This document shows, in pieces, positions 1-35,140 of a stretch of DNA of 40,379 bases. Source of the DNA: a virus; IMG/VR virus record IMGVR_UViG_3300008259_000154, positions 1 to 40,379 of that record; one strand, 5' to 3'. Both the position numbers and the translations under genes were made by a program. Within the stretch, counting starts at the first letter, position 1; each line of letters starts with the position of its first letter. The notes below the pieces were generated by a model. That model was not told where the DNA came from. It made no database searches and saw only the letters and a program-made list of their open reading frames with translations.

Positions 1-501
1 ATGTTGAGCCAGTTAGAAAAGAATCCTCAAGATTGGGGTGCACAAAAGAATATGGAAGGTGTACATGATCTTGTAGATGAATGGGGATTCCCAAAAGTTT
101 CAGCTGGTGTTTTGCAACTCGTAATGGGTGCAGTTTCAACACCTGATCAATATGTTGGTGATAGTGAGATTAGTGTACCAACAGATGCATACTACAGACA
201 CACAGAGATTATTGCTTTCCTGAAACGAAACTTCAAAACTTTCTCACGTTGCGGATATCTATCGCTTCCAGTTGGTGGAGAAGTTGGAAAGCATATTGAC
301 ATTGGAAGTTACTATCAAACTAGAGACAGATACCATCTTGCGATCCAAGGCACATATGAATATAGTGTTGGAGATGAAACTGTAAAAGTTGAGCCTGGAA
401 CTTTGCTATGGTTCAATAACAAATTAGAGCATGCAGCTAAGAATGTTGGAGACTGCGTAAGAATTACATTCGTGTTCGATGTACCACACAAGAAGAAATA
501 A
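1..501 (+). CDS. Aspartyl/asparaginyl beta-hydroxylase-like 2OG-Fe(II) oxygenase
   Basis: The 166-residue product shows the facial triad of 2-oxoglutarate/Fe(II) oxygenases of the Asp/Asn hydroxylase type: H98-x-D100 in GKHIDIG, a distal H144 in LEHAAKN, and R154 in the terminal strand as the likely 2OG-binding arginine. The RDRYHLAI stretch (108-115) also fits that family. Such enzymes hydroxylate protein side chains or small molecules; the substrate here is unknown. The reading frame starts exactly at base 1, so the true start could lie outside the window, although the length suits a small phage member. It ends 42 bases before groES, and a promoter separates the two genes, so it probably ends an upstream operon. 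It is one of three different 2OG oxygenases in the window. Confidence 0.7.
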   Translation: MLSQLEKNPQDWGAQKNMEGVHDLVDEWGFPKVSAGVLQLVMGAVSTPDQYVGDSEISVPTDAYYRHTEIIAFLKRNFKTFSRCGYLSLPVGGEVGKHIDIGSYYQTRDRYHLAIQGTYEYSVGDETVKVEPGTLLWFNNKLEHAAKNVGDCVRITFVFDVPHKKK

Positions 502-3814: not shown

Positions 3815-5134
3815 ATGGTAAAGGTAATTGTAGCAAAACAAAAACACGATATGACTCATATGTTGGGACAGTTCCCAGATGAGTCACATTATGATCATCT
3901 GATTGAAGAAGATACAGATGTTTATATGCCAGAAATCCCTGGACATCCAGAGATGACATTTTCTGAAGAGAGAATTGTTTTGAAGTTTCGTAAAAATTAT
4001 TTTAGTAAAGAGCAACAAGACCAAGCGTATATTGGACTTCGTGAAGCTGCAACTGAAACACAGAACAGAGGAATGGCTGCTGGACCACGTGCTGAGAAAT
4101 TAGGTAATCGTGAGTGGGTCACTGAATATGAATATGCAGTGATTGATTACTTTACAAATCCAGGTGCAAATTTGTATGGTGATGATCCAATCGAAACTAT
4201 TCGTGCAGAATTTAAGAATAAGAAAGAAGCACCATCAACTCGCAATAATGTTTGGGGTATTCAAGCAGTTAAGAGAGACAACTTTGTCTTTGAAGATTGG
4301 GTCAATGCCACTAAAAATCTTTCTAATGATGATATGATAGCTGAAGCTAAACGTATCTCTGACAAATATGTTTGTGCAACTACCTACGCAAATGGTGTGA
4401 TGTCTGGTATCGCTGGATGGTTCGATCGTTACCCACGTCTTCCATATGGTCGAGCAACTTCTTATACTGCTCGTGAGCCACAAAAGTTTGCTATGTCATT
4501 TCCATTCCTACAGCAATTGGCACAGGGTTTCAAAGACTTACTGCCATGGAGATATAACAACCAAATGGAAGCTGCAAAGAAACTAGACCCTCGTTTCTTA
4601 GTTCCTGGAACTCCATTCACTACTATCACTGTAAACAAATCGTTCAGAACTGCATGCCACTTTGATGCTGGTGATTTTACTGCTGGTCTTTCCAATCTTT
4701 TAACACTAACTAATAATGGCAACTATCGTGGATGTCATCTTGTAGCACCAGAGTATCGTGTTGCAGTAAATCCAAGACCTGGAGATTTGTTGCTCATTAA
4801 TAACCATGAAGTTATGCATGGTAATACTCAGATTGAACTGCTTGATGATGTTGCAGAAAGAATTTCTTTGGTTGTATACTTTCGTGAGAAGATGCTTGAA
4901 TTGGGTTCCAAAGAATATGAAGACTGTCGTTATGAATATGTTGAATCACGTAGACTTAATAAAGAACATCCAGGTCATGTCGGTCGTAATCTTTGGAATG
5001 GTATCGATGCTGGTATGTGGGAGAGTGAAGAGTGGCATACGTACTTAGAATCAAAACTTGGTACTGAAGTCTTACATAAATATCATCCACCAAAGACTAC
5101 TACAGTGGGTGCATTAGAGGAGTTTTTCGGATAA
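3815..5134 (+). CDS. TET/JBP-family 2OG-Fe(II) DNA base dioxygenase (predicted)
   Basis: A 439-residue protein whose C-terminal half matches the TET/JBP pattern: TVNKSFRTACHFDAGDF with H282-x-D284, then NYRGCHLVAPEYRVAV, RPGDLLLINNHEVMHGN (iron His 331 or 335), and ERISLVVYFRE with the 2OG-binding R349. The upstream NRGMAAGPR (85-92) is also typical. Known family chemistry: oxidation of 5-methylpyrimidines in DNA (5mC in TET, thymine in JBP). The first 50 residues and last 80 are phage-specific. It has a good RBS (AGGAGAAAG), and its stop overlaps the amidotransferase start (TAATG), opening a cluster of likely base-modification genes. With kinase and amino acid:DNA transferase candidates nearby, thymine to 5-hydroxymethyluracil is the most economical inferred reaction. 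Confidence 0.8.
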   Translation: MVKVIVAKQKHDMTHMLGQFPDESHYDHLIEEDTDVYMPEIPGHPEMTFSEERIVLKFRKNYFSKEQQDQAYIGLREAATETQNRGMAAGPRAEKLGNREWVTEYEYAVIDYFTNPGANLYGDDPIETIRAEFKNKKEAPSTRNNVWGIQAVKRDNFVFEDWVNATKNLSNDDMIAEAKRISDKYVCATTYANGVMSGIAGWFDRYPRLPYGRATSYTAREPQKFAMSFPFLQQLAQGFKDLLPWRYNNQMEAAKKLDPRFLVPGTPFTTITVNKSFRTACHFDAGDFTAGLSNLLTLTNNGNYRGCHLVAPEYRVAVNPRPGDLLLINNHEVMHGNTQIELLDDVAERISLVVYFREKMLELGSKEYEDCRYEYVESRRLNKEHPGHVGRNLWNGIDAGMWESEEWHTYLESKLGTEVLHKYHPPKTTTVGALEEFFG

Positions 5135-5841
5135 TGTGTGCTGTTATTGGTGCTATATTAAAGTCTCCGACTAAGGAAGACTTTCAAATGATTAAACGTG
5201 TGTTCCTTGAGTCTAAGGTTCGAGGAATGCATGCCACAGGTATGTCTTATCTTCCAAAATGGAGTAAAGAAATTGCAACCATTAAGGAATCTAGACCTGC
5301 CAATGAATTTGCATTTATTCATCTACATGATGATAACTTGAGAGATATGGTGAACGAAGATGGAATTTTATATCTTATTGGTCATTGTCGTTATAGCACT
5401 AGCGATTTGGAATATAATCAACCCTTAGGAAATGGCACAAAGTCCATTGTACACAATGGGGTTATTACACAGGAACTACCAGAGAACTGGGAACAGTTGT
5501 ATGGTTACAAGTGTATGACTAAAAATGATAGTGAGTTAATCTTACACTCTAGTGATCCATTAAAAGAGTTTTCTGATATGTCAATGGGTGCGATTGAACT
5601 TACAAACGATAGAAAAGTAAGAGCATACCGCAACGGTAAACGTCCATTGTATTTGACATCTTTAACAAATGGATGTATAATTACCTCTACAGAGGACATT
5701 ATTAATCGTGCAAAGGTAGTTGGAGTTACAACTGAAATTCCTATGAACACTTATGTTACATTTGATGAATATCTTACAATGACATTAGAACGAGTTGTAG
5801 CTACTAATGAAGTAGACTATCAAAATTATGAACCTAGTTAA
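5134..5841 (+). CDS. Class II glutamine amidotransferase (Ntn hydrolase)
   Basis: A 235-residue stand-alone glutaminase domain. The sequence opens MCAVIG, so Cys2 becomes the N-terminal nucleophile after Met removal. Other family marks are RGMHATG (31-37), GHCRYST, HNGVITQ, and NDSELI for glutamine binding. In GlmS, PurF and AsnB this domain frees ammonia for a partner synthetase domain; here no synthetase is fused. Encoded between a TET/JBP-like dioxygenase and a GNAT-like gene, it may donate nitrogen to a modified base, but that is inference. The start overlaps the upstream stop (TAATG), and the end overlaps the next gene by 14 bases. Confidence 0.85.
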   Translation: MCAVIGAILKSPTKEDFQMIKRVFLESKVRGMHATGMSYLPKWSKEIATIKESRPANEFAFIHLHDDNLRDMVNEDGILYLIGHCRYSTSDLEYNQPLGNGTKSIVHNGVITQELPENWEQLYGYKCMTKNDSELILHSSDPLKEFSDMSMGAIELTNDRKVRAYRNGKRPLYLTSLTNGCIITSTEDIINRAKVVGVTTEIPMNTYVTFDEYLTMTLERVVATNEVDYQNYEPS

Positions 5842-6469
5842 TTCAACGAAGGTTGAAGACCTTATCAAAAACTCACCAGCTGGTAAGAATACAAAATTCT
5901 TATCGGCTGCACATTCGTTGTGGTATCGCTTTCATAACTACGACAAAGCACCACCAATGTCTTATGAAGTAAATGGTGAAGTTGTATCATTAATCTTTGC
6001 TACATTCAATCGTGATGGTTATGCTAATCTATACGAGATTGTTACACTTGAAGGAAAAGAAGGAAATGGATACGCAAGTAAATGCTGGGACTGTTGGATT
6101 AAATATGCAGTTGAAGAACGAAAGATGCAACGACTAAAAATCTCATGCACTCCTTCTTCAGTCACATGGCACAATAAAAATGGTCTGATTTTTTGGGCAG
6201 TCGATCCAACAGGGTCACTTCGCAGTGACCAGCTATTGTTCTCTACACGTGCCGAACAAATTTCTTACAGAGACAATGCAATCGTGAATCCACTCCAAGC
6301 ACTACCACCATATAAAGCACGAGATCAATTTCGTTCTGAAGGTTTAGAATCATATAACTGGGGTGAAAAGAAGAAAGCAAAGACACAGGCTGCAATTGAT
6401 GCAGTTGGCAAAGCATGGCTTCGTGATGCACTAATGGATCAACCTTCACTTGAAGAATTTTTACTATAA
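5828..6469 (+). CDS. GNAT-fold acyltransferase, Mom-like (predicted)
   Basis: A 213-residue protein. The strand LYEIVTLEGKEGNGYASKCWDCW (about 75-98) resembles GNAT motif A, in which the GxGxA loop binds the acyl-CoA pyrophosphate. It is followed by KISCTPSSVTWHNKNGLIFWAVDPTG, reminiscent of DNA-modifying GNATs such as phage Mu Mom. Mom-type proteins modify adenines, while GNATs in thymidine-hypermodifying phages acetylate aminated bases; the neighbours make the second role more likely. The C-terminal 60 residues are basic, then helical. The start overlaps the amidotransferase end, and the stop overlaps the next ATG (TAATGG). It is not certain that this acts on DNA rather than protein. Confidence 0.6.
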   Translation: MNLVNSTKVEDLIKNSPAGKNTKFLSAAHSLWYRFHNYDKAPPMSYEVNGEVVSLIFATFNRDGYANLYEIVTLEGKEGNGYASKCWDCWIKYAVEERKMQRLKISCTPSSVTWHNKNGLIFWAVDPTGSLRSDQLLFSTRAEQISYRDNAIVNPLQALPPYKARDQFRSEGLESYNWGEKKKAKTQAAIDAVGKAWLRDALMDQPSLEEFLL

Positions 6470-7488
6470 TGGATTATCGTTTAGAACAAAATCGCAGAGA
6501 AGCATTCATTCGTTGGTACGCATGGTCATTGAAGTATGATGATTGCGATCCAGCTGTGTGGGCTACCAACTATCTCAACAAACGATTCGAACATAATGAT
6601 GAACAGAAGCTATGGCTCTGTTGGTTGTATGGTAACACGTACTATCTTCCAACTGCTTGGATTTTGATGAACGAGTTTCCTGACTTTGAGTTAGCTACCG
6701 TAGATCGTATGACACAATGGAACACTGCCAACTACAAACGTCTTCGCTATCAAACAGATACAAAGTGGAACAAGGGGCATCTGCCAGAGATGTTTGCATC
6801 ATATCAGAAGTTTATTGGTAATAGGAGTCAACGTGAGGCATTCGAATCATACTATGTGGGTAGTCCTGAGCAAAACTTTGAGTCTTTATGGGATGCGCTT
6901 AAAGGAAACCTTCATAAGTTTGGGCGTTATTCTACTTGGTTCTATATGCAGCATCTTAAGCATACTGGTGCTATTGATGTACAGCCTACTTCTCTTATGC
7001 TTGACGATTATGATGGTTCCCGTAGCCATCGTAATGGGTTGCTTATGGCCATCGGGCAAGATAACGACTATGATAGAAAACTTTCTAGAGCAGAATATGC
7101 AAATCTTGAATCTATTGGCAATGGAATTATCGATGAGATGGTAGATCGTTTTCCAGAGTTAAAGGATCAGATTGATTTCTTTACAATGGAAACCTGCCTA
7201 TGTTCATTCAAGAAAATCTTTAGAGCACACCATGGAAGATATCTTGGTTACTATCTGGATAGACAGGCTGAGGAAATTCAGCAGTGTGAGAAAGATGGAT
7301 GGTACGGTATCGACTGGGATGTTCTATGGCAATCACGTGAAGAAACTATTGATTTGAGATTGGATCATCGAAGAGGTATTGATAAAGATAGATTTAGTTC
7401 ATTTATGAATACTGGTAAGATGGAAAATTTTGAGTGGATGTTTACTGACGAAAGACCTTTATTAACTGGATTGGAGAATTTTATATGA
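6469..7488 (+). CDS. Amino acid:DNA transferase-like protein (aGPT-PPlase clade 2-like)
   Basis: A 339-residue helical, Trp/Tyr-rich protein. The N-terminal part (FIRWYAWSLKYDDCDP, EQKLWLCWLYGNTYYLPTAW, NEFPD, QWNTANYKRLRY, TKWNKGHLPEMF) strongly resembles the alpha-glutamyl/putrescinyl-thymine pyrophosphorylase clade 2 proteins, renamed amino acid:DNA transferases. These displace the phosphate or diphosphate of kinase-activated 5-hydroxymethyl-dU with an amino group. I judge this from remembered family patterns, not a search. Co-encoding with a P-loop kinase (7942) and a TET/JBP-like oxygenase (3815) supports the assignment. A possible metal or active-site segment is LMLDDYDGSRSHRNG. The ATGA overlap with the next gene implies coupling. 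Confidence 0.6.
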   Translation: MDYRLEQNRREAFIRWYAWSLKYDDCDPAVWATNYLNKRFEHNDEQKLWLCWLYGNTYYLPTAWILMNEFPDFELATVDRMTQWNTANYKRLRYQTDTKWNKGHLPEMFASYQKFIGNRSQREAFESYYVGSPEQNFESLWDALKGNLHKFGRYSTWFYMQHLKHTGAIDVQPTSLMLDDYDGSRSHRNGLLMAIGQDNDYDRKLSRAEYANLESIGNGIIDEMVDRFPELKDQIDFFTMETCLCSFKKIFRAHHGRYLGYYLDRQAEEIQQCEKDGWYGIDWDVLWQSREETIDLRLDHRRGIDKDRFSSFMNTGKMENFEWMFTDERPLLTGLENFI

Positions 7489-7949
7489 GTATTACAACTA
7501 CAACTACAACTTTACCAGGAGCAGGGGTTGATGTAAATCCCCAGTATGATCCTAGTATGGATACACTAAAAGTTATGACTGGAAATTCATGGCTTCCTAT
7601 CACTACTGGTAGTGGTGGTATTGGTGATGGTGTTATTACTGCTAATAATGCCATCTGGAATCATCAACAAAAGCATGAAGATATTCTAGATAAGTTTGAG
7701 ATGAATCAAGTTGTGGTTGAACATAAAGTCGCAGAACATGAATTGATGAAACTTAAAACTGATCAACCTGATTATGCAGAACACATCAAACAAAACCTAG
7801 CTAAGACTGCTACTACACAGATTCTCAATAAGATGTCATTCACAAAGAAAAGAAATATGGATACCGATGTTAATCATTTCATCGGAAGAGTATGGGTCTT
7901 TAATAAAGACGAAATGGAAACATTGATTAAAGAGATTAGAAATGCTTAA
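7485..7949 (+). CDS. Unknown 154-residue protein in the modification cluster
   Basis: I do not recognise this protein. It begins with a Thr-rich tract (SITTTTTTLPG) encoded by ACT/ACA codons, followed by a Gly/Ser-rich segment and then a helical part rich in His, Glu and Lys (about 60-115). The C-terminal strand DTDVNHFIGRVWVFNKDEMETLIKEI looks folded. It is coupled on both sides (ATGA with the transferase-like gene, an 8-base overlap with the kinase), so it is probably a cofactor or structural partner of the pathway. A virion protein inserted in the operon is the alternative. Confidence 0.6.
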   Translation: MSITTTTTTLPGAGVDVNPQYDPSMDTLKVMTGNSWLPITTGSGGIGDGVITANNAIWNHQQKHEDILDKFEMNQVVVEHKVAEHELMKLKTDQPDYAEHIKQNLAKTATTQILNKMSFTKKRNMDTDVNHFIGRVWVFNKDEMETLIKEIRNA

Positions 7950-8547
7950 TGAACGAGTTGGTGTCACAGATATCGCTACTGTTACGAAAGTCACAAAACC
8001 TATGAAAACGAGAAAGCTAATCGCAGTTGGTGGAAGTCCAGGAACTGGTAAGACTACATTGTTCCGTAAATTCATGGAAGGTAAAACATGGATCGAGGTA
8101 GAACCAGCTAAACTGGTATCTGCCATGTATAATGAAGAGATGGATCTTTATATTCTCGGCAAGTATCAAGAGGGTGAAGTCTTCGCTGGAACCGATCGCC
8201 TATCGATGGCAGTCCAACCAAACGTCCAAGAATGGATCAAGAATCATAATTGCAACATCCTTTTCGAGGGTGACCGAATCTTCAACCAATCTTTCTTAGA
8301 GTATGCAATGGCTCTACCGAGTACGGACTTCCAAGTGGTCTATCTAAAAGTACCTAAGCCAATGTTGGAACAGCGATATAAAGATCGTGGTTCAGACCAG
8401 TCTGAGACTTTCCTAAAAGGTCGTGAAACTAAATATAGCAATATACTATCTAACTTTGAATTAATGCCCTATATTACTGAGTTTAATAATACTAACTTAG
8501 AGGAGCAACAGAAGGTACTGGAGTTTTTGGAGAAGTCCTTTAACTAA
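7942..8547 (+). CDS. P-loop kinase, candidate 5-hydroxymethyl-dU DNA kinase
   Basis: A 201-residue P-loop kinase with Walker A GGSPGTGKTTL (30-40), a second-strand acidic segment (NILFEGDRIFN), the strand FQVVYLKVPKPMLEQRY, and an arginine-rich lid (QRYKDRGSDQSETFLKGRETKY). Size and layout fit small nucleoside or polynucleotide kinases. Next to the transferase-like gene it fits the 5-hmdU DNA kinases of hypermodified phages, which phosphorylate the base hydroxymethyl group in DNA. A zeta-toxin-like or nucleotide kinase is the alternative. I kept ATG 7942 because AAAGAGA lies upstream; ATG 8002 would also keep the P-loop but lacks a clear RBS. Confidence 0.7.
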   Translation: MLNERVGVTDIATVTKVTKPMKTRKLIAVGGSPGTGKTTLFRKFMEGKTWIEVEPAKLVSAMYNEEMDLYILGKYQEGEVFAGTDRLSMAVQPNVQEWIKNHNCNILFEGDRIFNQSFLEYAMALPSTDFQVVYLKVPKPMLEQRYKDRGSDQSETFLKGRETKYSNILSNFELMPYITEFNNTNLEEQQKVLEFLEKSFN

Positions 8548-8564: not shown

Positions 8565-9254
8565 ATGAACTTCCTAGAGAAACTGGACTACGACTGGCTG
8601 GACATACTCAATTTTCAAGAGCGTCCATTTAGAGCCAAACTCATTCCAGCAAAAGTGTGGAAAGACCTAGATCTGTATCGCAATGATGCCTCTGGTCTTT
8701 CGAACTACTGTAAAAAGTGGCGCACCAAAGTAGAATTCTGTAAAAAACCCAAAAACAATAAAACATACGAGAACTATATTGCAATTGGGGGTGAATATGA
8801 TGCAGAATCCCGTCAATGTACCATGCATCTTTATACACTAAACTTCGATACATTTAAGTTTAGTAATATCACATGGTTTAGCTTCAAGAAAAGATTCATA
8901 CAAACTCTTATGCATGAGATGATCCATTTCATGCAGTACGATCGTCGTGACGATCGATGGAGTAATTACGTTGTTCCATACAAAAGAATCGGGCATAAGA
9001 AGAAAGATGCTGAGAGAAAGTACCTTTCGGAATTCGATGAGATTCAAGCATACGCCCACTGTGTCTACATCGACCTAAAAATGAATCGCCCCAGAGTAGC
9101 ACTGGATACCCTATTATCACGTTGCAAAGATAAGCGTGATTCTTCTACACTTCACTACTTCTTAAAGACTTTCAACTATGACTTTAAGAACAACGTGGCT
9201 ACACAAAAAATCATCCAACAAATAGGTAAGTGGGATCGTAAATACAAATCCTAA
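8565..9254 (+). CDS. Zincin-type putative metallopeptidase
   Basis: A 229-residue protein with the zinc motif H117-E-M-I-H121, preceded by the helix KKRFIQTLM, and a downstream SEFDEIQAYAH where E156 or E159 is a likely third zinc ligand. This matches SprT/gluzincin-like putative peptidases seen in T4-like phages. No signal peptide is visible, so it should act inside the cell or virion. The surrounding sequence is basic and cysteine-containing. It starts 17 bases after the kinase stop and closes the modification cluster, but a functional link to DNA modification is unproven. A short A/T-rich gap with a CTAAATA box follows. Confidence 0.65.
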   Translation: MNFLEKLDYDWLDILNFQERPFRAKLIPAKVWKDLDLYRNDASGLSNYCKKWRTKVEFCKKPKNNKTYENYIAIGGEYDAESRQCTMHLYTLNFDTFKFSNITWFSFKKRFIQTLMHEMIHFMQYDRRDDRWSNYVVPYKRIGHKKKDAERKYLSEFDEIQAYAHCVYIDLKMNRPRVALDTLLSRCKDKRDSSTLHYFLKTFNYDFKNNVATQKIIQQIGKWDRKYKS

Positions 9255-9257
9255 ATA
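9251..9257 (+). promoter_or_regulatory. Candidate T4-like late promoter box (CTAAATA)
   Basis: CCTAAATAG immediately after the metallopeptidase stop, 27 bases before the next ATG (9284). T4-like phages of marine type use TAAATA-like late boxes read by gp55. The same box precedes the gene at 13248, and both genes look like virion genes. Confidence 0.4.
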
Positions 9258-9283
9258 GTAGACAATTTTACTAATGGATTCAA

Positions 9284-10660
9284 ATGGGTTACGATTTTAA
9301 GAAACTTGGAGATACTGCTAAGAAAGTCTCCACATACCTTGCTAGTAAGGGTGTGAAGGTAGCAGTAAAAACATCTAGATACCAGACTGAAATCAAAGCA
9401 GTTGAGGTAGCATCACCGACTTCTCTCGAAGACCTATTAAATTCTGTTGGTCTTAAAGGTACGATCTCTGATCTATCCACTACTGAAGAGAAAGCAATCT
9501 CAGGTAAGTACAAAGCCAAGCTAATTAAAATAACTGCATCCAGTGGACCATGCTCTACTGGAGAGACATTCTTTATCGTCAACACCTTCACAGAAAAGGG
9601 TACACTAAAGACGAAAGACCTAGCACCAGAGAAATTCAATTTAACGTCTAGTCGTTTTGATTCATTGGACACTTTTGATACTGCTGTATTAAAAGGTATC
9701 AAAGCAAACACCACAGTACCAAATGATATTAAGACTACAATAACAGAATTATATAAGTCTGTTGTAGCTAATAAATCAACAAACAAAGACAATATACCAA
9801 TGTCTATCGCTGCAAAGAAATCTTTTGCAACAGTTAAGCCTCAAGACAAACAAGCTATTGGTAAAGACTTCGGTGAAGTATTATCAATGAGATGGTATGT
9901 CACTCAAGCATTCGCTTCAACATGGCAACAATGTTATTTTTCAGAAATAAGTAACGAAGCATTGGTTGACTTTGTTGTCACAAAGAAAGTTGGATCAAAG
10001 GTTGTTCCTTCAAACATATCAGCTAAGTTTGAAGCTGGTGCTGCTCCATCAATTGGTGCAATTGTTGATAACTTAGATGTGGTTTATAAAACACCAACTG
10101 CTGCAGAGAAAGCAGCTATTGATGTACTTAAAGCACTGGCAGATAGTAACTCAAATACATCCACCAAAATTCTAGCTGCGATGAAAACTATTAAACATCC
10201 AGCATATGTTGTTCTTAAAAAGATTATCGGTAAACCATCATTTACTATTGCCGATATCTCTGCTCACATACAGAAGATTGCCACTAAAAATAAAACAGCC
10301 AAAGGTCGTATTGATGAGTTTATGAAAACATATAAACCATTCTATGATGAATTGGGGAAGAATGCTAGCCCAGATTCTATTGCTGTCGTATTTGCTGGTG
10401 CGTCTTATAAGAAATATTATTCATTAGTAATGGCTCCATCTGGTTATGCATTGGTTGATTATATGAATAAACAACCCATATACCAAACTATATTAAATAA
10501 CATTAGTCAGCAAATGAAGACCGAACAGGTTTATTTAAACTTCGTTGGGGAAACTATGCAATTTACTAAGAAGTTATTTTCAAAAGCTAGTTTTAAATTT
10601 GCGTATGGGGCTAATGCAAAGGACTCTGATAATACAGGTATCAAATTCTCTATGTTATAA
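9284..10660 (+). CDS. Unknown 458-residue protein with PD-(D/E)XK-like signature
   Basis: I do not recognise this family with confidence. The N-terminal third (SGKYKAKLIKITASSGPCSTGETFFIV) is beta-rich. The centre has an ordered series, DFGEVLSMRWYV, then ALVDFVVT, then NISAKFEAGAAPS, which resembles the E...D...xK arrangement of PD-(D/E)XK nucleases with K in SAK. That is a weak pattern call. The C-terminal half is helical with a Ser/Tyr-rich patch (SYKKYYSLVMAPSGYALVDYM). It is preceded by a possible late promoter and followed by a conserved repeat and a strong promoter, so it seems to be its own transcription unit. It could be a head-associated nuclease or a structural protein. Confidence 0.6.
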   Translation: MGYDFKKLGDTAKKVSTYLASKGVKVAVKTSRYQTEIKAVEVASPTSLEDLLNSVGLKGTISDLSTTEEKAISGKYKAKLIKITASSGPCSTGETFFIVNTFTEKGTLKTKDLAPEKFNLTSSRFDSLDTFDTAVLKGIKANTTVPNDIKTTITELYKSVVANKSTNKDNIPMSIAAKKSFATVKPQDKQAIGKDFGEVLSMRWYVTQAFASTWQQCYFSEISNEALVDFVVTKKVGSKVVPSNISAKFEAGAAPSIGAIVDNLDVVYKTPTAAEKAAIDVLKALADSNSNTSTKILAAMKTIKHPAYVVLKKIIGKPSFTIADISAHIQKIATKNKTAKGRIDEFMKTYKPFYDELGKNASPDSIAVVFAGASYKKYYSLVMAPSGYALVDYMNKQPIYQTILNNISQQMKTEQVYLNFVGETMQFTKKLFSKASFKFAYGANAKDSDNTGIKFSML

Positions 10661-23453: not shown

Positions 23454-24488
23454 ATGTTATACATTGATGCAAAATACGCCCAAATTCTGGGTAGTCGTTT
23501 GCGAAATTTCAAACAAAAAAAAGATTATGTCTGGAACTACTCATGTCCAGTGTGTGGTGACTCATCTAAAAATAAGTTAAAGGCACGTGGCTACATTTAT
23601 CGTGCACAGGCTGACTTATTTGTTAAGTGTCACAATTGTGGTTATGGAACAAACATCGGTAATCTTATCAAGTATGTTGATCCTGTTCTTTATGATGAGT
23701 ATGTTCTGGAAAGATATAAAGGTGGTGCCAGTCCATATAATTCACATAAAGATGTCACACCAATCCTTGAACGTGCATCAACAAAAGATTTATTAGAAGA
23801 TGATATCTTGTCATCTCTCACAAGACTTGATACATTATCATTAACAAATCCGAAGCACCCAGCAATCAAATATATCGAAGATAGAAAGATACCAAGAGAT
23901 AAATGGTATCTGTTATACTTTGCACCTAAATTTAAGACATATACGAATACCGTAATTCCTAAATTTATGGAACCAGTTGAAGGTGATCATCCTCGGATGA
24001 TTATTCCATACTTTACCAATGCAGGTAAATGTTTTGCGTATGGTGCTAGAGCGTATGGAAATGAAGAGCCTAAGTATTATACCATCAAAGTAGATGACAC
24101 TCAAGAGAAAGTTTATGGTCTCGAAAGGATAAATTATGCTAAACGAATATATGTGGTTGAAGGACCAATTGACAGTTTATTTCTACCAAATGCCGTGGCT
24201 GTATCTGGAGCCAGTTTTGATACCCCTACTATCCGTAGCCTTTTATCAAATGCTACAATAATTATAGATAATGAACCAAGAAGTAAAGAGATAGTTAAAC
24301 AACTTGGTAAATATATCGATCAGGGATATAGTGTTTGTATGTTTCCAGATACAATACAACACAAAGACATTAATGATATGATTTTGCATGGTGGAATGAC
24401 ACCAGAAGAAATTTTAGAAGTAATAAATACAAACACCTATCGTGGAATTGAAGCTAAACTTAGATATAGTGAATGGAAAAAGATATGA
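23454..24488 (+). CDS. gp61-like DNA primase
   Basis: A 344-residue primase. The N-terminal zinc-binding domain has C31-x2-C34 (CPVCGDS) and C59-x2-C62 (CHNCGYG). The catalytic part shows a TOPRIM-like strand with VVEGPIDSLFLPNAVAVSG, then TIIIDNEPRS, and PDTIQHKDINDMIL. In T4, gp61 lays RNA primers at the fork with the gp41 helicase, whose relative is encoded at 2.4 kb. It is the first gene after a strong promoter and is followed by ThyX through an ATGA overlap, linking priming and thymidylate supply in one early operon. Confidence 0.88.
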   Translation: MLYIDAKYAQILGSRLRNFKQKKDYVWNYSCPVCGDSSKNKLKARGYIYRAQADLFVKCHNCGYGTNIGNLIKYVDPVLYDEYVLERYKGGASPYNSHKDVTPILERASTKDLLEDDILSSLTRLDTLSLTNPKHPAIKYIEDRKIPRDKWYLLYFAPKFKTYTNTVIPKFMEPVEGDHPRMIIPYFTNAGKCFAYGARAYGNEEPKYYTIKVDDTQEKVYGLERINYAKRIYVVEGPIDSLFLPNAVAVSGASFDTPTIRSLLSNATIIIDNEPRSKEIVKQLGKYIDQGYSVCMFPDTIQHKDINDMILHGGMTPEEILEVINTNTYRGIEAKLRYSEWKKI

Positions 24489-25153
24489 AAGTTAGAATGA
24501 TAAGTTATAGTAATCCATCGAAAGAAATTGCTGAGCAAGGGCTGTATGATGTTCAAGAACTTATAGCATTCTGCGCAAGGGTAAGCAACCCCAGCAATCA
24601 AAATAACACAGAGACATCAGAAAAGTTAATTAAGTATTTAATTAAACATCAACATTGGTCACCATTAGAAATGGTCAGTGCATGTTTAGAAATTGAAACA
24701 ACTCGTGACATAGCAAGACAAATATTACGTCATCGTTCTTTCTCATTCCAAGAATTTAGTCAGCGATATGCTGATCCAACAAAAGACTTATCTTTCGTTC
24801 TTAGAGAAGCCCGACTTCAAGATACGAAGAATCGTCAAAATAGTGTTGAGAATACAAATCTAGCATTGGCTGCTTGGTGGGAAGAGAGACAAAAGCGAGT
24901 AATTGAAGAAGCGAAGAATGCTTATGAATGGGCAATCACTAATGGTATTGCCAAAGAACAAGCAAGAGCAGTATTGCCAGAAGGATTGACTGTCAGTCGT
25001 TTATACATGAATGGTACATTGCGTAGCTGGATACATTTTATAGAATTGAGATCTGCGAATGGTACACAAAAGGAACATCAAGAAGTCGCACGAGAATGCG
25101 CAAAAGTTATTGCTGAAGTATTTCCTTTGGCAACTGAATTAGTAAAACTATAA
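24485..25153 (+). CDS. thyX: Flavin-dependent thymidylate synthase
   Basis: A 222-residue ThyX, identified by the diagnostic RHRxxSxxExSxRY motif (RHRSFSFQEFSQRY, residues 82-95) and the C-terminal ARAVLPEGL and NGTLRSWIHFIELR segments. It methylates dUMP to dTMP using FAD, NADPH and methylene-tetrahydrofolate. I chose ATG 24485 (MKVRMISYS), which overlaps the primase stop as ATGA; ATG 24473 would add four residues. Its presence means normal dTMP is made. Thymidine-hypermodifying phages usually carry a ThyA-like dUMP hydroxymethylase, and none is seen in this window. Confidence 0.95.
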   Translation: MKVRMISYSNPSKEIAEQGLYDVQELIAFCARVSNPSNQNNTETSEKLIKYLIKHQHWSPLEMVSACLEIETTRDIARQILRHRSFSFQEFSQRYADPTKDLSFVLREARLQDTKNRQNSVENTNLALAAWWEERQKRVIEEAKNAYEWAITNGIAKEQARAVLPEGLTVSRLYMNGTLRSWIHFIELRSANGTQKEHQEVARECAKVIAEVFPLATELVKL

Positions 25154-25170: not shown

Positions 25171-25779
25171 ATGCAAGAAATTGTGCATGGCATAAAAGTT
25201 GATTACACTCGTGATAATTTGTTTGACGAATTAGGAAGATTGAGACTTAAAGAAAGTTATATGAAAGATGATGAGGTATCTCCTCAAGAAAGGTTTGCTT
25301 ATGTTTCGAGCACTTTTGGCAGTAATCCAGACCATGCTCAGCGTCTGTATAATTACTCCAGCAATCATTGGCTTAGTTATAGTACTCCAATTCTTTCTTT
25401 TGGTCGTAGTAAGCGTGGGCTACCTATTTCATGCTTTCTTAACTATATTGAAGATACAGCAGAGGGTTTAGTTGAAAACTTATCTGAAACAAATTGGCTC
25501 AGCATGCTTGGTGGTGGTGTCGGAATTGGTTTCGGTATACGTTCTGCCGACGATAAATCGACTGGTGTCATGCCTCACCTTAAAATGTACGATGCGAGTT
25601 CTCTTGCTTATCGTCAAGGTCGTACTCGCAGGGGTAGTTACGCTGCTTACTTGGACATTAGCCATCCTGATATTATATCTTTTCTTGAGATGAGAAAACC
25701 AACTGGTGATCAGAAAATGAACATCGTGAGACAGTGTCAGCAAAAGAATTGTGGCAACGTATCCTTGAGATGCGTATGA
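25171..25779 (+). pseudogene. nrdA: Ribonucleotide reductase large subunit, N-terminal fragment (frameshifted)
   Basis: This frame encodes the first half of a short class Ia NrdA without an ATP cone: HGIKVDYTRDNL, NHWLSYSTPILSFG, GLPISCFLN with the first active-site Cys, GGGVGIGFG, and RQGRTRRGSYAAYLDISHPDII. After PTGDQKMN the family pattern stops and an unrelated tail (IVRQCQQKNCGNVSLRCV) runs to a TGA. In relatives a segment of roughly 35-45 residues (a NLHHGxNIxDxFM...W.L.DP type block) lies between GDQ and the RETVSAKELW that continues here in another frame. The sequence thus shows an internal deletion plus frameshift. It could be a real mutation, an assembly fault, or less likely a functional split. 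Confidence 0.85.
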
Positions 25780-26846
25780 TGACTGGTGAACCATATCTAC
25801 ATTTCATTGATGAATCTAATCGTAAACTACCACAGTGGTTGAAAGATAAAGGACTTAAAGTCCACCAATCAAATCTCTGTTCAGAGATTATCCTACCAAC
25901 GAATGAACAACGAACAGCAGTATGTTGCTTATCATCACTAAACTTAGAGTATTATGATGCATGGAAAGACGATCCTATATTTCTTCGTGATGTTGCAGAA
26001 ATGCTTGACAATGTTCTTCAGTATTTTATTGATAATGCACCTGACACAATCAGCCGAGCTAAGTATTCTGCACTGCGTGAGCGCAGTATTGGCATCGGTG
26101 CTTTGGGTTGGCATGCTTATCTACAGCGAAACAATCTCCCATGGGAATCATCAATCGCAGTTGGAAGAAACAAACAAATCTTTAAAAACATAAGAGAGAA
26201 ACTAGATGAGGCTAATAGAGAATTGGGACTGGAGCGTGGTGAGGCTCCTGATGCAGTGGGCACTGGGAATCGTTTTAGTCATCTTATGGCTATTGCTCCC
26301 AATGCTTCTTCTTCCATTCTCATGGGCAATACTTCTCCTAGTATTGAACCTTATCGTGCCAATGCTTATCGCCAAGACACTCTATCAGGTTCTCACTTAA
26401 ATAAGAATAAGTATCTTGACGAGGTAGTTAATAATTATGTTGCGACAAACCCTAAAGCGGATGCACAAGAAATATGGAGTTCAATTATTGCGAACGATGG
26501 TTCAGTTCAGCACTTGGATTGGATGGAAGAGTGGACAAAAGATGTTTTCAAAACATCTATGGAAATTGACCAGCGTTGGGTCGTACAGCATGCCGCAGAC
26601 AGGCAGGTATTTATAGACCAAGCTCAATCACTCAATGTATTCTTTAGACCAGATAGTCATATCAAATATATTCATGCTGTGCACTTCCAAGCATGGAAAC
26701 AAGGATTGAAGACTATGTACTACTGCCGTTCTGATAAGATTGCTAAGGCAGATAAAGTTTCAAAACGTATTGAACGTGAAGTTATCAAAGAGATTGATTT
26801 ACATGCACTTGCAGAAGGAAACGATTGTTTAGCATGTGAGGGATAA
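25734..26846 (+). pseudogene. nrdA: Ribonucleotide reductase large subunit, C-terminal fragment
   Basis: A 370-residue frame starting at GTG 25734 (SAKELWQRILEMR), 45 bases inside the previous frame. It carries the remaining active-site elements: SNLCSEI (radical-site Cys with Asn and Glu), AVCCLSSLNLE, GIGALGWHAYLQ, APNASSSILMGNTSPSIEP, QWVVQHAADRQ-like C-terminal barrel segments and the end DCLACEG, whose two cysteines receive electrons from thioredoxin. No RBS is apparent at the GTG, and upstream the frame is open only to a TGA about 25 bases before, so efficient independent translation is doubtful. The stop overlaps the next gene (TAATG). Confidence 0.85.
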
Positions 26847-34404: not shown

Positions 34405-34616
34405 TTACGATTAAAGGTATCTCCAAGCGTCATGTGCAACTCTTGGATGAGATGTGGGCATGTGATTCTTTCGAGGAATTCGAGCAATTGAAAGCATCGC
34501 ATTCTGCAGAGGATCAACTCATTATTGATTCACTAATGCGTATGGTATTGGCTGAGTGTATTGACAATGATCTTGGAGACATGGCAGAAGCTAAAGAATT
34601 GCTGAGTAAATTCTAA
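34401..34616 (+). CDS. Conserved small phage protein (71 residues)
   Basis: A 71-residue helical protein (ISKRHVQLLDEMWACDSFEEFEQLKASHSAEDQLIIDSL and LAECIDNDLGDMAEAKELLSKF). The pattern ISKRH...LLD.MW.C is familiar from conserved hypothetical proteins of aquatic phages; function unknown. It sits between MazG-like and 2OG oxygenase genes with overlaps on both sides, so it belongs to the same operon. Confidence 0.7.
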   Translation: MITIKGISKRHVQLLDEMWACDSFEEFEQLKASHSAEDQLIIDSLMRMVLAECIDNDLGDMAEAKELLSKF

Positions 34617-35140
34617 TGTTAGAGATTCATGATAACTTAGTAAATGAAAATTATGCAAACAGACTGCGTAATATTTTATTATCTCCAAACTTTCCATGGT
34701 ATTATTTACCAGAAACAACACCATTTGATGGAGCGCATGATTTTGGAACATTGACTCATATCTTTGATCATGAGGATGTTTCCGTTAAAACGTCTGAGTA
34801 TATCGGGACTGCTATAACTTTGTTAGATTTATTTTCAGGTTCTACTGGTTATAAGATTGACAAAATAATAAGAAGTAGATCTAATCTAGTGATTGGATAT
34901 CCAGGCTTGCATGATAGAATGTCTGATAAACACATAGATTATGACATCCCACATCATGTCATATTGTACTATGTTTGTGGAAATGCTAACACAGTCTTCT
35001 TTAACGAAGATGGAAGTATCATGCAGGAAGTAGAATCAAAAACAGGAAGATTCGTTATCTTTGATGGAAGTATTATGCACTCTATAAGAATTCCAGACGC
35101 AACACGAGTTGTATTTAATTTTAATGTAATCTTAAAATAA
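34616..35140 (+). CDS. Prolyl hydroxylase-like 2OG-Fe(II) oxygenase
   Basis: A 174-residue double-stranded beta-helix protein: DKHIDYD with H106 and D108, then HHVILYYVCGNANTVFFNEDG, GRFVIFDGSIMHSI with distal H155, and TRVVFNFNVIL with R164 binding 2-oxoglutarate. This is the phage prolyl-hydroxylase-like class, common in cyanophage-like T4 relatives. The substrate is unknown. It is the third 2OG oxygenase of the window, different in class from the TET/JBP-like and Asp/Asn-hydroxylase-like ones. It starts in a TAATG overlap and ends just before a promoter. Confidence 0.8.
   Translation: MLEIHDNLVNENYANRLRNILLSPNFPWYYLPETTPFDGAHDFGTLTHIFDHEDVSVKTSEYIGTAITLLDLFSGSTGYKIDKIIRSRSNLVIGYPGLHDRMSDKHIDYDIPHHVILYYVCGNANTVFFNEDGSIMQEVESKTGRFVIFDGSIMHSIRIPDATRVVFNFNVILK

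Follow-up and report, generated by a model that had tools for sequence, protein, structure and literature searches.

A conserved TET/JBP oxygenase operon of a T4-like aquatic phage, predicted to hypermodify thymine in DNA

A T4-like aquatic phage carries an operon that would hypermodify thymine in DNA after replication, using a TET/JBP-type oxygenase (TET), a P-loop kinase, an amino acid:DNA transferase (ADDT), a class II glutaminase and a GNAT-fold acyltransferase; the probability of this reading is put at about 0.7. Sequence comparison supports well the view that the operon is real, conserved and devoted to thymine-directed DNA hypermodification. Its core combination has already been described, and its tailoring set is apparently new.

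Genes of the operon

The window, that is, the whole stretch of DNA analysed, is a 40,379-base virus record, and its phage is regarded as T4-like because UvsX and a gp41-type helicase match T4-like proteins. The operon lies on the + strand directly 3′ of the helicase gene, and its coordinates in the original prediction, 3815-8547, were confirmed. That prediction had counted five overlapping genes; the overlaps (successively 1, 14, 1, 4 and 8 bases) are present, but the number of open reading frames (ORFs) is six, because an unnamed ORF sits between those for ADDT and the kinase (Table 1). The TET and ADDT family assignments have strong support and the glutaminase assignment has good support; support is moderate in the case of the kinase and, by sequence, weak in that of the GNAT protein.

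Table 1. Features of the operon and other features of the window
Feature	Coordinates	Strand	Evidence or remark
TET/JBP-type 2OG-Fe(II) dioxygenase, 439 aa	3815..5134	+	Tet_JBP 6.9e-27
Class II glutamine amidotransferase, 235 aa	5134..5841	+	GATase_6 2.5e-8
GNAT-fold N-acyltransferase, 213 aa	5828..6469	+	Acetyltransf_1 0.0019 and predicted fold
ADDT, amino acid:DNA transferase (aGPT-PPlase family), 339 aa	6469..7488	+	PF18724 1.4e-21
Unnamed ORF between ADDT and kinase, 154 aa	7485..7949	+	C-terminal half conserved
P-loop kinase, predicted 5-hmU DNA kinase, 201 aa	7942..8547	+	Ploopntkinase3 3.2e-9
Zincin-like HExxH protein, after the operon	8565..9254		downstream in most relatives (92 loci)
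ThyX flavin-dependent thymidylate synthase, outside the operon	24473..25153	+	motif RHRxxSxxxxSxR
Ribonucleotide reductase large subunit, two overlapping ORFs	25171..25779 and 25734..26846		as if frameshifted or interrupted
Further oxygenase-like protein	1..501		Asp_Arg_Hydrox 1.5e-7
Protein resembling a 2OG-Fe(II) oxygenase	34616..35140		judged by eye only

The assignment of the first gene to the TET/JBP-type 2OG oxygenases holds: its product scores 94.1 bits with the Pfam family Tet_JBP (cut-off 34.9) and gives profile matches to TET2 (1.3e-9) and CcTet (0.003), and H282, D284, H335 and R349, which make up the HxD...H iron site and the 2OG-binding Arg, are invariant in 19 homologues. The reaction predicted for this enzyme is the oxidation of thymine in DNA to 5-hydroxymethyluracil (5-hmU). 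Its AlphaFold2 model was poor (pLDDT 57, pTM 0.46) and was left out of the fold search. In public records, TETs also appear under the misleading names 'SNF2 DNA repair protein' and 'queuine tRNA-ribosyltransferase'.

The amino acid:DNA transferase-like protein was likewise correctly named. It scores 77.8 bits with PF18724 (cut-off 26.2) over profile positions 20-230 of 232, and matches phrog_3271 (6.9e-52) and the homologous proteins of ViI-like phages; it is predicted to place an amine on an activated hydroxymethyl group. The kinase had been said to resemble 5-hmdU DNA kinases, and the evidence on this point is mixed. It shares phrog_800 (5e-15) with the ViI kinase, and the two have in common the P-loop, G73-Y75, D85, E109-G110 and R145, with an hhalign probability of 90%. 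However, it is only a distant relative of that kinase; a phmmer search with the ViI kinase as the query gave no match, and the Pfam families differ, PF18748 (5-hmdU DNA kinase) for the ViI kinase versus Ploopntkinase3 (37 bits) for the window kinase. Ploopntkinase3 is the family to which the actinophage kinases adjoining TET and ADDT belong, and the kinases of phages Wooper, Prince and Phelemich score 199-246 bits with it. Profile searches place both the kinase and the transferase in relevant families, not in unrelated ones, and the characterised relatives of both act on 5-hmdU (PMC6449724). Public labels for the window kinase family include 'terminase small subunit' (phrog_800) and adenylate kinase (e.g., L162:38203-38865 and L003:17349-17894), both of which are misleading.

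The class II glutaminase call also stands. The ORF consists of the glutaminase domain only, beginning with an N-terminal Cys2 and containing the conserved Arg, Asn-Gly and Asp of the class II site, and C2, R86, N108, G109 and D132 are invariant in 17 homologues. The protein is a predicted source of ammonia. No solved structure matching ADDT or the glutaminase by sequence was found. For the third gene, described previously as a GNAT/Mom-like transferase, the GNAT part was retained: the Acetyltransf_1 match is below the Pfam cut-off, and the assignment is supported by the predicted fold, as the AlphaFold2 model (pLDDT 65) retrieved SpeG-type N-acetyltransferases in Foldseek (1e-5). A Mom-like identity was rejected, with no match to the Mom family and with nearly all of the 50 structural matches listed being generic N-acetyltransferases, none of them named Mom. 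The GNAT protein is predicted to acylate the added amine. The unnamed ORF gave no significant Pfam or PHROG match; homologues 32-48% identical to it occur in most relatives, and loci L072 and L129 contain no detectable copy.

Conservation and exchange of tailoring genes

A scan of viral contigs with the window TET as the query gave matches in 330 stretches, and the best 80 of these 330, combined with an ADDT scan, yielded a related set of 138 loci in 128 distinct contigs. Gene order and strand are kept in 127 of the 128 contigs of this set, and the catalytic residues of TET and the glutaminase are invariant; therefore, the association of the genes is not due to chance. The glutaminase and ADDT lie between TET and the kinase in all 70 contigs of the set that hold both, a count that for ADDT is partly by construction because some of the contigs were picked with an ADDT query. 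A window-type GNAT gene is present in 65 of these 70 contigs (same set, from the best 80 of 330 TET matches and the ADDT scan), and other genes occur in the rest. In L142, its place is taken by another kind of GNAT (Acetyltransf_10, 5.8e-12) and an amidoligase-like protein with a weak match, a pair to which proteins in L138, L131 and L133 are similar; in L141, the replacement comprises a glycosyltransferase-like protein, an Amidoligase_2 protein (6.2e-9) and a low-molecular-weight phosphatase. These replacements indicate that TET, the glutaminase, ADDT and the kinase form a constant core, while the finishing enzymes are exchanged. The gap between TET and the glutaminase has additional sequence in eight loci in total, including L013 and L072, where it holds an additional ORF (in L013, a 2OG-Fe(II) oxygenase, 1.7e-18). 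Additional sequence, perhaps a mobile nuclease, was also seen between GNAT and ADDT in 22 loci with the window-type GNAT, and L013 has an additional 225-aa ORF at that place (L013:11114-11791) with no Pfam match.

Glutaminase and amidoligase families also work in metabolite synthesis, a fact that would suit a cluster whose target is not DNA but something like tRNA or a small molecule. TET, ADDT and the window kinase family are tied to DNA base modification in other phages, and the conserved residues and the retention of the operon in the 128 contigs argue against an inactive cluster. Either situation, an inactive cluster or a target other than DNA, is considered very improbable.

The base acted upon

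The search for a hydroxymethylase or a C5 methyltransferase outside the locus was made on four relatives of 161-171 kb, the window itself being a genome fragment; these are near complete because all 16 T4 core genes tested are present. Neither a thymidylate-synthase-fold hydroxymethylase (PF00303) nor a C5 cytosine methyltransferase (PF00145) was found in the four, and phmmer with the ViI hydroxymethylase also gave no match in them. As positive controls, PF00303 detected the ViI hydroxymethylase at 54 bits and PF00145 detected the methyltransferase of Methylophilales phage Melnitz. ThyX and ADDT are present in all four relatives, and ThyX (PF02511) was found in six of six related viral contigs tested. 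The ThyX of the window, to which the original prediction had assigned the synthesis of dTMP, was verified by its motif.

A second line of evidence comes from the neighbours of TET. In Melnitz-type loci, a C5 methyltransferase is directly upstream of TET wherever more than 1.3 kb of upstream sequence is available (58/58) and ADDT is found in none of 71, whereas window-type TET loci of the related set (best 80 of 330 TET matches and the ADDT scan) usually have ADDT and in no case (0/70) a C5 methyltransferase; these counts do not represent independent events, because the loci within each group are related. Phylogenetic analysis placed window-type and Melnitz-type TETs in separate clades of a tree whose root is not fixed and in which S-CBWM1 forms a long branch. 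A P-loop kinase related to that of the window accompanies 25 of the 71 Melnitz-type TETs (L206-L276), so that the kinase alone is no marker of thymine. Given the absence of a hydroxymethylase and a C5 methyltransferase in the relatives, together with the contrast between methyltransferase and ADDT, thymine already in DNA is the likely substrate, and it is simplest to suppose that window-type TETs act on the methyl group that thymine already has.

We know of no phage TET with demonstrated activity on thymine and, to our knowledge, a single phage TET assay has been published, on 5-methylcytosine (5mC). This assay (Burke et al. 2021, as cited in PMC12730594) and the Melnitz-type coupling of a C5 methyltransferase with TET, and in some loci with a kinase, would fit a route in which TET oxidises 5mC supplied by a methyltransferase that is either the host's or unrecognised, and in which the kinase and ADDT act on 5-hydroxymethylcytosine. 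Such a cytosine substrate is nevertheless unlikely: although a host enzyme could provide 5mC, the C5 methyltransferase is missing not only from the four near-complete relatives but also from phages Cr30, DLP6, C48C1, S-CBWM1, Kozie, Wooper, Prince and Phelemich, and ADDT never accompanies the methyltransferase-linked TETs. The base-contact residue (Asp287; Asn in TET2) was tried as an indicator of substrate preference and was discarded, as it is Asp in both window-type and Melnitz-type TETs; Asp occupies this position in most TETs of these two types and of DLP6, with Asn or Ser in others.

In the characterised thymidine hypermodification pathways, those of M6, ViI and phiW-14, the starting compound is 5hmdU synthesised prior to replication (PMC6449724). 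By analogy, 5-hmdUMP could be supplied by an unrecognised or ThyX-derived hydroxymethylase, with TET having another role, for instance in RNA modification or additional oxidation; since the ViI hydroxymethylase reaches just 54 bits with PF00303, the search could overlook a more divergent enzyme. The phmmer result in the four relatives and the intact ThyX motif speak against this, as does the fact that the operon consistently begins with TET. Furthermore, PF00303 has no match in Kozie, Wooper, Prince and Phelemich, and the only thymidylate-synthase-fold enzyme of Cr30 is a canonical thymidylate synthase. Pre-replicative synthesis is accordingly judged quite unlikely, slightly more so than the cytosine substrate.

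DLP6 (L002:6057-6920, 9001-10347) and S-CBWM1 (L005:3729-6061) possess TET and a TET-associated glycosyltransferase (PF20691), and they have neither a C5 methyltransferase nor an enzyme of the thymidylate-synthase fold. Both are candidates for base-J-like glycosylated 5-hmU in phage DNA.

Proposed pathway and known systems

Oxidation of thymine in DNA, followed by the kinase reaction, amino transfer and acylation, as originally predicted, is still the best reading, having passed the hydroxymethylase, methyltransferase and family tests; from family assignment and genome context we infer all of the reactions, the nature of the nucleophile and the final product. Thymine made by ThyX would enter DNA normally and be hydroxylated there by the TET/JBP oxygenase to 5-hmU, whose 5-hydroxymethyl group the P-loop kinase would phosphorylate. 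A nitrogen nucleophile would then displace the phosphate in the ADDT reaction, and the GNAT protein may acylate the resulting amine. The glutaminase, whose role is the weakest point of the proposed mechanism, would supply ammonia either for amination by ADDT or for amidating a transferred amino acid. That amides are formed, in at least some relatives, is suggested by the amidoligase variants. Tentatively, glutaminase-derived ammonia may be passed to ADDT; the 5-hmU made by TET and activated by the kinase would then be converted directly to 5-aminomethyluracil with no amino acid donor, to be decorated by the exchangeable enzymes GNAT, amidoligase or glycosyltransferase; this version is possible but doubtful. 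The purpose of the modification is most likely escape from host nucleases, by analogy with ViI, M6 and phiW-14.

Iyer et al. in 2013 reportedly predicted that hydroxymethylpyrimidines made by TET/JBP enzymes are starting points for more modification, and Lee et al. in 2022 are said to have described the installation of an amino acid and its subsequent tailoring, including acetylation. The original prediction knew of no description of the combination found here, and on this point it was wrong for the core trio: the GenBank annotation of Gordonia phage Wooper lists TET, aGPT-PPlase2 (ADDT) and 5-hmU DNA kinase, and the same three proteins were described as a thymidine hypermodification system in Rhodococcus phage Tonitrus (Daspit et al. 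2025, PMC11955845). TET, ADDT and kinase also occur together in the cultured phages Cr30, Kozie, Prince and Phelemich. The actinophage module (Tonitrus, Wooper, Microbacterium phage Kozie, and Mycobacterium phages Prince and Phelemich) shares with the window TET/JBP, ADDT/aGPT-PPlase2 and a Ploopntkinase3 kinase, and Kozie, Wooper, Prince and Phelemich resemble the relatives of the window in having neither hydroxymethylase nor C5 methyltransferase. Unlike the window, the module has ParB-like genes and, in some cases, FAD oxidoreductase genes; neither a glutaminase nor an amidoligase was seen in it, and its TET belongs to a separate clade of the tree. Caulobacter phage Cr30 is T4-like and has ADDT, with a TET 46% and a kinase 41% identical to those of the window; however, its genes are scattered across about 9 kb, a TAGT-like glycosyltransferase and an inositol-1-phosphate synthase are added, and the region read has no glutaminase match. 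ViI, M6 and phiW-14 probably share the chemistry of a 5-hmdU kinase and an amino acid:DNA transferase with the window (PMC6449724) but make 5hmdU before replication, for which ViI has its hydroxymethylase. The C5-methyltransferase-TET phages (Melnitz and the phages of Burke et al. 2021) have in common with the window TET and sometimes a related kinase, and differ in the two neighbours described above. In kinetoplastid base J synthesis, a TET/JBP enzyme oxidises thymine in DNA to 5-hmU, as proposed for the window, but glucosylation follows instead of kinase action and amino transfer. What appears to be new is the constant glutaminase alongside ADDT, together with swappable tailoring genes, namely GNAT, amidoligase with another GNAT, or glycosyltransferase with amidoligase and phosphatase.

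The occurrence of a C5 methyltransferase or ADDT, never both, offers a simple rule predicting the substrate of a phage TET. If the proposed pathway is true, thymine hypermodification can begin at the normal thymine of replicated DNA via the JBP reaction and not only at a pre-made nucleotide. The direct use of ammonia, if true, would give aquatic T4-like phages a branch of DNA hypermodification that is new and that begins with ordinary thymine.
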